In this document: positions 27,525 through 29,751 of the stretch, piece after piece
How positions within the stretch are numbered: position 1 is the first letter of the stretch
How the letters are laid out: each line of letters begins with the position of its first letter
NCBI RefSeq assembly: GCF_014696715.1
Contig: NZ_JACJQO010000005.1
Coordinates: 1,054,001 to 1,118,000 of the forward strand
Direction: 5' to 3'
Length of the DNA: 64,000 nucleotides
Origin: Pseudanabaena sp. FACHB-2040
Lineage (GTDB): Bacteria > Cyanobacteriota > Cyanobacteriia > Phormidesmidales > Phormidesmidaceae
Position numbers and translations under genes: made by a program
Notes under the pieces: generated by a model
Told to the model about the DNA's origin: nothing
The model's database searches: none
Seen by the model: the letters and a program-made list of their open reading frames with translations, nothing else

Positions 27525-27865
27525 ATGCAATCAGAACAAACTGATGCTACAGTCTTTGTGCAAACCACCCTTAGTGTATTGGGTGGCAAATGGAAGCTTT
27601 TGATTTTATGGCACCTCAAGATGATGGAAAGCGTTACAGTGAATTGAAACGATTGATTCCTGCAATTAGCGAAAAAATGCTAATTCAGCAGCTTCGAGAG
27701 TTGGAAAAGGACACAATCATTAGCCGCAAAACCCTATCAGAGATGCCCCCTAAAGTTGAGTATTCCTTCACAGACTACGCCAGAACTCTCATACCTGTCT
27801 TTCAACCACTGTTCGATTGGGGGCAAACGCACTTTAAACGAATGAATATAGACAAATTAAGTTGA
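27525..27865 (+). pseudogene. HxlR-family regulator broken by a frameshift
   Basis: A good AAGGAGG site precedes ATG 27525. The first frame encodes the N-terminal part of an HxlR winged helix (TTLSVLGGKWKLLILWHLK), then diverges and stops within about 10 codons. The rest of the domain, DGKRYSELKRLIPAISEKML through LRELEKDTIISRK, lies in the frame of a second open stretch that ends at 27865. The break falls near 27615-27625, where a one-base loss or two-base gain fits. As written no full regulator can be made. A sequencing error is possible, as is decay of the adjacent SDR locus. Confidence 0.85.
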
Positions 27866-28019
27866 TTTAATGAGGATTTTTATATCGATCTGTCTACTTA
27901 AAGCCTTGCGTTGCAAGATAGTCCGAATAAACCGATCTATGAAAGTAATCATAAGGCGGCATGATAACCACAGCCAGAAAATCAAGCCGCATAACAATTA
28001 TTTAGAGGAAAATTTTCTG

Positions 28020-28140
28020 CCTAATACCCCTATAAGGGTGATTAGGTAGAATTCCGTCAGCCTAATACCCCTGTGGGGTGATTAGGTGGAAATTTGTCAG
28101 CCTAATCCTCCTGTAGGGGTGATTAGGTGGAAACTTTCTG
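28020..28140. repeat. Three tandem 40-bp palindromic units
   Basis: Units at 28020-28060, 28061-28100 and 28101-28140 each hold a hairpin of the form CCTAAT-N-CCC..GGG-TGATTAGG, followed by a related 13-14 base spacer ending near GTCAG or TTCTG. Spacers resemble each other and are too short and uniform for CRISPR. The arms stay paired although loops differ. The array sits just downstream of the broken HxlR gene. Possible roles are protein-binding iterons, transcript stabilising hairpins or a remnant of a mobile palindromic element. Confidence 0.8.
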
Positions 28141-28253: not shown

Positions 28254-28286
28254 AAAAAAGCGAGCTTCTTCAAGAAGCCCGCTTTT
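28254..28286 (-). terminator. Rho-independent terminator
   Basis: On the minus strand AAAAGCGGGCTTCTT pairs with AAGAAGCTCGCTTTT with a single mismatch, followed by a run of six Ts. It is much stronger on the minus strand than on the plus strand. No minus-strand gene precedes it within 250 bases, which is why a small RNA is suspected. Confidence 0.75.
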
Positions 28287-28456
28287 GGGTGTATCGGTTT
28301 TTACTTGAAATCGAGGATCAGATCGGCTAGTATCTTTCCTCATAGCTGTGTACAAGCAGCTTGTCTTCCCCCGAAAACTTGGTCTGCGGCACTGGCAAAT
28401 GCTACCAACATCAACCAGCGCCTAACCCGTTGACAGAACACACCTGTCTCAGGGCT
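28254..28456 (-). ncRNA. Candidate small RNA ending at a strong terminator
   Basis: No protein is seen on this strand, yet the minus strand reads several hairpins in order: GACAG-loop-CTGTC near 28430-28446, GGCGCTGG with CCAGTGCC (apical stem at roughly 28386-28424), CAAGC-CTTG, and the terminal stem-loop at 28254-28286. A weak promoter-like TTGACA (28490-28495) and TAAAAT (28464-28469) lies upstream, spaced more widely than usual. The ~200 nt size is compatible with a 6S-like or novel regulatory RNA, but I could not match it to a known family. Confidence 0.3.
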
Positions 28457-28510
28457 TTGCCTATTTTAGGTCGCTCTGTTAATTCAGCAATGTCAAGGGC
28501 TGCCATTTTT

Positions 28511-28549
28511 TCGGGGATTCCTACCCGTTGATTTCAAAGGAATCCCTGA
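28511..28549 (+). promoter_or_regulatory. Hairpin masking the ribosome binding site of the next gene
   Basis: TCGGGGATTCCT (28511-28522) pairs with AGGAATCCCTGA (28538-28549) over 12 bp with one G-U pair and a 15-base loop. The right arm contains the only ribosome binding site (AGGA, 28538-28541) and ends one base before the ATG at 28551. In this folded state ribosomes could not bind, so expression of the downstream gene should depend on melting, a protein, or a trans RNA. Confidence 0.6.
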
Positions 28550-28550
28550 A

Positions 28551-28841
28551 ATGATTCAAATTCAATACTTTCTGTCGTCTCCCTACACCGAGACGACACG
28601 GCCTGCTGCGCGTCAAGTTCCTCTAGTGCAGCCTCGGCGCAGGCGCTTGCGTCTGTATCTAGTCGGCTCCAATGTCGATACCCGCAGCGCCATTGCCAGT
28701 CTCCACCATCTTGGCTATGCCGAGCAATTTGAGTGGAGCCACGTCATCGACATTCCCGAAAATGGCTTGTTCGTGCAGCCCGACCCTGGCGACGTGTTGC
28801 GCTATCTCCAGCGCTACCCCGCTCCCAGACCCCCTGTGTAG
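28551..28841 (+). CDS. Small protein of unknown function
   Basis: A 96-residue protein. The middle, RRLRLYLVGSNVDTRSAIASLH, then YAEQFEWSHVIDIPENGLF, and a C-terminal DPGDVLRYLQRY, has the balanced, folded-protein character of a conserved cyanobacterial ORF, although I do not know a family. The start codon follows a hairpin that covers the ribosome binding site. It is bounded by repeats on both sides. The first ~25 residues look poorly ordered. Confidence 0.6.
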   Translation: MIQIQYFLSSPYTETTRPAARQVPLVQPRRRRLRLYLVGSNVDTRSAIASLHHLGYAEQFEWSHVIDIPENGLFVQPDPGDVLRYLQRYPAPRPPV

Positions 28842-28981: not shown

Positions 28982-29133
28982 TACTTCATTAAGGGGAGAG
29001 GTGCGATCGCATTTCCCCACCCCAATGCCGTTCTGCATAAGGTGCACTGTCGCCCTTTGCCCATCTTTTAGAAGCCTATGCTGTGACGGGCACACTTTGC
29101 TTTGCCCAGCCTACGAGATCCCAACTGTAAGCC

Positions 29134-29751
29134 TTACTTGCAGACTAAAGAGTCAAACACCGCTCTTGCATTTGTCTCTGCCTGCTCACCATTAGCCAAT
29201 ACCCAGGCAAAACGGTTTGTCCCGGCGTAGTCTACTGCAGCCAGATAACTCACCGACTGTAAAACTTGATCAGCGCTTCGAAAGGTACCTTCTTCGATCC
29301 GCACCGGGACTGTTTGACCACATAGAGGCAGATTTTCGGTTCGCTGAGTTTCCGCCGTATACTCTCCTTCCTGGGACATGCTTTCCTGAAAAGAGTCCAA
29401 CATAGACGTTTGAGCAGCCTCATCCTGCAAGTAGGCAGGCAGTCTACCCACTGTCAGCAAAACTCCAGGCGGGTCTTGCGCATCTGCTACCTGCGCCAGC
29501 TCCACCCCCATTACATTCATGTTGAGCAGCCCTCTCGTCTCCCCTGGAATTTCGTACTCAAAGAGTTCTTGGGCCTGCTGCTCTACGTTCTCAGGATCGA
29601 TTGAGAAATTTAATGCTCGGCTGAAGAAAACTGTCAATACAACTATCGACAAAACAGAGAGCCCCAGACATCCACCACAGCCAAGAGCAAGCCACTTCCA
29701 AGTACCATTGCTCTTGGCTGCAGAAGGCTGAGTCGGTTCAAAGTCCTGCAT
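29134..29751 (-). CDS. Membrane-anchored protein of unknown function
   Basis: I do not recognise a family. The 205-residue product has one hydrophobic segment near residues 19-45 (WLALGCGGCLGLSVLSIVVL) and a soluble part with FEYEIPGETRGLLNMNVMG, a strand-rich central region, and a conserved-looking end around LAAVDYAGTNRFAWVLANG. The likely topology is a short cytoplasmic start with the bulk outside the membrane. No operon partner is evident. Confidence 0.65.
   Translation of the reverse strand: MQDFEPTQPSAAKSNGTWKWLALGCGGCLGLSVLSIVVLTVFFSRALNFSIDPENVEQQAQELFEYEIPGETRGLLNMNVMGVELAQVADAQDPPGVLLTVGRLPAYLQDEAAQTSMLDSFQESMSQEGEYTAETQRTENLPLCGQTVPVRIEEGTFRSADQVLQSVSYLAAVDYAGTNRFAWVLANGEQAETNARAVFDSLVCK

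Follow-up and report, generated by a model that had tools for sequence, protein, structure and literature searches.

A Shine-Dalgarno-burying hairpin as the likely closing element of a conserved two-state leader RNA before a multicopy small-protein gene family in cyanobacteria

The hairpin that directly precedes a 96-aa open reading frame (ORF) of Pseudanabaena sp. FACHB-2040 is confirmed, and it forms the final segment of a larger structured RNA. In the reading that we favor, at a probability of roughly 0.6, this start-site hairpin would terminate a conserved leader RNA that has two states and controls translation, and would close it in the OFF state. The helices of the leader, their co-variation, the strands that they share and their link with one small-protein family emerge from sequence comparison. 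All coordinates refer to the window, i.e., the whole stretch of 64,000 nucleotides that was analyzed, and the leader, its helices and the ORF are all on the plus strand.

The start-site (SD) hairpin occupies positions 28511-28549 and was read directly from the sequence, recovered by a repeat finder and supported by conservation. Its arms, TCGGGGATTCCT (28511-28522) and AGGAATCCCTGA (28538-28549), form a stem of 12 pairs, 11 of them Watson-Crick and one G-U, around a loop of 15 nt. The right arm begins with AGGA (28538-28541), all bases of which are perfectly paired. The stem buries this motif nine bases before the ATG at 28551, and a single base (28550) lies between stem and start codon. The repeat finder returned the same structure as inverted repeat I2 (28509-28522 / 28538-28551; 93% complementary, arms 15 nt apart). 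An earlier, sequence-only reading of this DNA had described a hairpin that hides the ribosome binding site of a small gene, and the stem, the 15-nt loop, the AGGA and the one-base gap to the ATG are all confirmed as it described them.

The local fold of the hairpin has a predicted energy of -22.7 kcal/mol, which exceeds that of shuffled sequences only moderately (z -1.88; 6 of 200 shuffles were as good). Among the 42-nt pre-start segments of the window ORFs of at least 90 aa (n=96), that of the 96-aa ORF was the most stable at -19.2, the next being -17.5 and -14.0. Decisive over the single-sequence z, the hairpin recurs copy after copy with compensating changes, and it is therefore not due to chance. 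The comparison covered 82 leaders whose start codon was identified, comprising 37 from a first set and 45 from 48 distinct extra hits. The median start-site hairpin in these leaders had an energy of -18.95 kcal/mol and 13.5 pairs, and 76 of the 82 had 0-4 nt separating the hairpin from the start codon. A strict rule, by which the SD core must be fully paired within a stem of 8 bp or more, held in 60 leaders, two of which (the insertion carriers L182 and L187) pass via a different stem. In most of the 22 leaders that failed, either the stem is the same but for a single core bulge or mismatch, or the script had chosen another stem. The hairpin is weak in L143, L144 and L148. Within the near set of 37 leaders, only one pair of the start-site hairpin, taken alone, was changed on both sides.

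The leader upstream of the hairpin is ∼211 nt long. Similarity between copies starts about at a promoter-like site (28305-28333; TTGAAA, 17 nt, TAGTAT), where the conserved unit begins; the consensus scan found one such site versus 0.8 expected by chance. Transcription would start near 28340, from this site. The presumed 5' end of the leader carries the hairpin P1 (28344-28349 / 28356-28361), taken from the consensus fold of 37 copies. It is followed by the 5' strand of a long-range helix, PL (CCCCGAAAACTTGGTC, 28369-28384), which was detected as inverted repeat I3 and in the alignments. The hairpins P2 (28388-28395 / 28415-28422, inner pairs 28399-28401 / 28409-28411) and P3 (28432-28436 / 28444-28448) are both backed by compensatory changes. 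P4 (28450-28455 / 28473-28478, inner pairs 28459-28461 / 28469-28471) is based on alignments and on the arm-swap test described below, and its 3' strand is common to P5 (28469-28476 / 28497-28504), a hairpin that was recognized by the arm-swap test and is an alternative to both P4 and PL. The 3' strand of PL (TGCCATTTTTTCGGGG, 28501-28516; alignments and arm-swap) then runs into the start-site hairpin, whose loop motif UACCC (28523-28527) resembles a conserved CUAACCC between P2 and P3. ACCC-like loops are kept in many subfamilies despite differing arms, and the UACCC motif may possibly make a tertiary contact.

The consensus fold of the 37 leaders consisted of P1, P2, P3, P4 and the start-site hairpin; 16 of its 37 pairs were double-changed in one or more sequences. 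PL had first shown up as inverted repeat I3 and was added to this fold by hand. In alignment A7, which holds 87 distinct leaders, 90.9% of the cells were paired and 35 of 41 pairs were changed on both sides. The covariation score of this alignment, which was fitted to the structure, was 0.440, as against 0.043-0.075 with slid partners, while the 25 training sequences alone gave 0.247 against 0.041-0.081. Conserved unpaired bases also lie between the helices. Rfam gave no match at the gathering score in the window or in nine copies, and weak matches appeared only at E up to 10. On these comparisons, the leader probably represents a structured RNA family that is new and has a bistable expression platform. 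Neither the leader RNA nor the gene family was described in the portions of the literature that the search covered, which is no proof of their being unpublished.

The promoter, the ∼211-nt leader and the 96-aa ORF together make up a unit of ∼0.53 kb. Its borders were determined from the window copy, 20 other places in the same genome and 20 from three relatives (G001, G022 and G058). The unit begins at about -262 and ends with the ORF, at or close to its stop codon; its boundaries are sharp between paralogues, and the flanks are unrelated between copies. Broken copies also occur (L042, L044, L050 and L055). A covariance model of PL, P2, P3 and P4, trained on 25 copies, yielded 30 leader matches in the genome itself. 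Of the 59 relatives, 30 had matches, among them 27 of the 36 that belong to the window's own family, and a single genome carried as many as 37. In a search of 15 loci, the model recovered the untrained subfamilies L045-L049, L056-57 and L066-L070 at E ≤ 3e-17. In the phylum sample, where up to seven candidates per genome were scored, at least 5 of 386 genomes carry the leader.

The leader is constantly linked to one small-protein family. Family ORFs, as defined by our own rule, follow 45 of the 48 distinct extra leader hits, and L168 has a protein match, while only truncated ORF remnants follow the leaders L129 and L147; the 37 leaders of the first alignment had been picked by their ORF. Leader hits that initially had no protein match precede divergent family members (e.g., MFDYQEPD...KVRHMLYGSLAAIDRTIKILHALGYADPNDWS). 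The leader is also better conserved than the ORF, with a median identity of 0.749 versus 0.708 over 276 pairs, on a scale on which unrelated flanks reach ∼0.62 with the same aligner. Thus, the window copy and L038 share 93% of the leader versus 77% of the ORF, and L031 and L038 share 94% versus 77%.

The ORF itself (28551-28841) encodes a small, Arg-rich protein of a multicopy, unnamed cyanobacterial family. It is coding, as the distribution of changes over codon positions (465:268:1207 in 35 close pairs) shows, most of them falling in the third position. Matches numbered 27 in the genome itself and were found in 36 of the 59 genomes searched and in 32 of 386 phylum genomes. Pfam, NCBIfam and PADLOC returned no match; PHROG gave a weak match only (E 0.042), and phages gave none with two family members as queries. 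Among solved-structure sequences, none matched with A3 and two matched insignificantly with A6 (best E 0.019). Two structure predictions had pLDDT values of 60.5 and 69.1 and pTM values of 0.45 and 0.50, too poor for use, and a PDB fold search returned nothing. The protein family occurs without the leader in some copies of the window's own clade (e.g., L005 and L008) and in other cyanobacteria, and a search with R1 did not find the leader in the four Nostocales plasmid loci and six other distant chromosomal loci examined. Family proteins, annotated as hypothetical, are present on ten Nostocales-type cyanobacterial plasmid records. The plasmid homologues L203-L206 are leaderless and hypothetical, and one of them adjoins ParG and replication genes on Trichormus variabilis plasmid D.

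The start-site hairpin does not stand on its own, since its left arm and the 3' strand of PL have GGGG (28513-28516) and flanking bases in common. The two helices share at least three bases in 81 of the 82 leaders (median 7 nt). When the PL strand was removed from the 82 leaders, the median fold of the start site weakened from -20.0 to -5.9 kcal/mol, and the mean openness of the SD core rose from 0.04 to 0.24. Even when PL has formed, the SD core remains largely paired, and its openness is near zero in some leaders (e.g., L045, L139 and L189). Exclusion need not be full; in 33 of the 82 leaders, a partial PL and a partial start-site hairpin were both predicted at above 0.5. In the predicted ensemble of the window leader, PL ranged from ∼0.04 to 0.4 and the start-site hairpin from ∼0.6 to 0.98, depending on the length of coding sequence that was folded.

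For the arm-swap test, the 82 leaders were reduced to 34 representatives, 32 of which were used (L144 and L187 were dropped). With permutations that ignore kinship among these 32, own arms gave -26.2 kcal/mol versus -20.4 for swapped arms in PL, -18.3 versus -15.6 in the start-site hairpin, -15.7 versus -13.5 in P4 and -22.8 versus -19.1 in P5, with 0 of 10,000 permutations in each case. Three control pairings were not significant (9323, 9635 and 882 of 10,000). P4 and P5 thereby form a second pair of mutually exclusive, co-varying helices, although the subgroup of the window copy (L036, L032, L034, L037, L039 and L040) has a weak P5 relative to most subfamilies. In one subfamily, the arms GUUCUGUUUC / GAAACAGAAC replace GGGGAUUCC / GGAAUCCCC, and CAGAAC serves as their competitor upstream; with arms that differ wholly and a competitor to go with them, the logic of competition is kept despite the changed sequence.

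A mechanism can be proposed from these shared strands. In the OFF state, P5 would form, leaving the following strand TTTCGGGGATTCC free to pair with the ribosome-binding arm, and the SD would be buried. In the ON state, the strand at 28369-28384 would capture GGGG via PL and P4 would replace P5; the start-site hairpin would then be reduced to a few weak pairs, and ribosomes could bind. That the switch acts on translation, which of the two states is ON, and what triggers the change are points that we infer. The leader precedes this one gene family only, in dozens of copies, and on that ground our guess for the trigger is the encoded Arg-rich protein, which would bind its own leader in a feedback loop. 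A ligand, or some other protein, has almost the same likelihood. A broader and rather doubtful extension is that of a self-contained RNA-protein module, in which a bistable RNA would be spreading in cyanobacteria as a ∼0.5-kb cassette, the Arg-rich protein would work with or on the RNA, and the copies would cross-regulate in trans.

Translational control by hiding of the start site, as put forward in the sequence-only reading, is well supported by the comparisons; that reading was of the correct type but had missed the length of the leader, the helix that competes and the multitude of copies. Of the three triggers suggested there, a protein is possible and is the one that we prefer. Melting is less likely in view of the strong hairpin (median -18.95 kcal/mol), the usually perfectly paired SD and the conserved competing helix. 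A trans RNA from the neighborhood, which we took to be the hairpin array at ∼28018-28135, is not supported, as it pairs with the start-site region no better than shuffled sequences do: 167 of 500 shuffled arrays, in which only single-base composition was kept, pair as well, and the array is itself a dispersed repeat.

Several other explanations of the hairpin were weighed. The leader could be a small-molecule riboswitch, with PL, P2, P3 and P4 as the aptamer and the start-site hairpin as a translational expression platform, and both its sensor-like multi-helix domain with a shared switching strand and the conserved unpaired bases between the helices would fit such an arrangement. We nevertheless consider it unlikely, because the same small-protein family follows 46 of the 48 extra hits, with truncated remnants after the other two, as well as the 37 leaders chosen by ORF; up to 37 copies per genome would be odd for a metabolite sensor, and no Rfam riboswitch matched. 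We give the same low standing to the leader RNA being itself the product, either a non-coding RNA or part of an RNP with the small protein, in which case the start-site hairpin would mark the 3' end or couple synthesis to translation. The greater conservation of the leader than of the ORF (93% versus 77% between the window copy and L038), the dispersal of the unit in many copies and the position of the RNA directly before its ORF, as in HEARO/omega RNA, all agree with this idea. The stem, however, stays within 0-4 nt of the start codon in 76 of 82 leaders, and the SD stays inside it while the stem sequence changes, which points to translational control.

The remaining explanations are considerably weaker. 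An RNA thermometer, i.e., a hairpin that melts with heat, would account for an SD buried in a hairpin adjoining the start codon, but it is improbable for a hairpin of such strength (median -18.95 kcal/mol, 13.5 pairs) and would have no need for a conserved competitor strand 130 nt upstream. Slightly less probable still is a DNA-level structure of a mobile element, such as recognition hairpins for a transposase, even though the ∼0.53-kb unit is dispersed between unrelated flanks and some of its sites are lineage-specific (e.g., G001 lacks the segment at 25.8-29.1 kb). The non-Watson-Crick cells of the A7 helices comprise 256 G-U versus 145 A-C, and those of the start-site hairpin 16 versus 3; this excess of G-U on this strand fits plus-strand RNA as the selected form. 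The hairpin is, moreover, tied to the SD and the start codon, neither terminal inverted repeats nor target duplications were seen by eye at the unit copies, and a clean empty site was not found. A chance palindrome or a transcription-factor operator would agree with the single-sequence z of only -1.88; conservation with compensating changes over many subfamilies contradicts this reading, which we find scarcely credible.

Among known systems, translational riboswitches resemble the leader in having two exclusive folds with a shared switching strand, one of which buries the SD. The SD of the leader likewise lies in one of two exclusive folds, with exclusion being partial by prediction in 33 of the 82 leaders. 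Unlike those riboswitches, the leader has no known ligand or Rfam family, and its dozens of copies per genome are restricted to a place in front of a single small-protein family. In ribosomal-protein operons, autogenously controlled leaders are structured and precede a gene whose product may bind them. The leader is similarly a structured RNA before the gene of a candidate binder, but the gene is multicopy, encodes an unnamed small protein and is less conserved than its leader. The HEARO or omega RNA of IscB elements is a large structured RNA directly before an ORF, with many copies reported from some cyanobacteria. The leader did not match the HEARO covariance model even at E 10, and its ORF of 96 aa has no match to an IscB/IsrB-type nuclease domain in Pfam or NCBIfam. 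RNA thermometers (ROSE, fourU) also pair the SD in a hairpin that adjoins the start codon, but whereas an imperfect or marginal SD hairpin is expected of them, the leader has a strong stem of 12 pairs with a perfectly paired AGGA and a conserved competing long-range helix. By analogy, the leader may act in the manner of a translational riboswitch or of an autogenously controlled leader, and it appears to belong to no known class.

What had been seen as a lone hairpin thus becomes a large and strongly co-varying RNA family that is absent from Rfam. The switching model is precise, in that it predicts the competing bases and the mutants that would lock the leader on or off. It is unusual for a regulatory leader to surpass its gene in conservation and to recur dozens of times before one gene family, and this raises the question of a joint role for the RNA and the small protein.

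The sequence around the unit contains further repeats. Three tandem units of ∼40 nt, each a hairpin (GCCTAATACCCC..GGGGTGATTAGG), make up the array at 28018-28135; similar arrays occur elsewhere in the genome (14 matches), some of them just upstream of sister leaders (near L031, L035 and L038). A strong inverted repeat with a T-run on the minus strand lies at 28256-28286, just before the conserved unit, and similar palindromes (AAGCGGG..CCCGCTT or GGTTTCTT..AAGAAACC) are found beside several other copies of the unit. Downstream, a short dispersed repeat at 29058-29120 is present in many places in G000 and G001. The close relative G001 lacks the whole segment 25780-29133, and its aldo/keto reductase gene is directly followed by the gene at 29134. 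Within this segment, an HxlR-type regulator (27525-27865) appears to be split over two frames (ORFs 27525-27647 and 27590-27865), and its Pfam match begins at profile position 17, which together suggest a frameshift or an upstream start.
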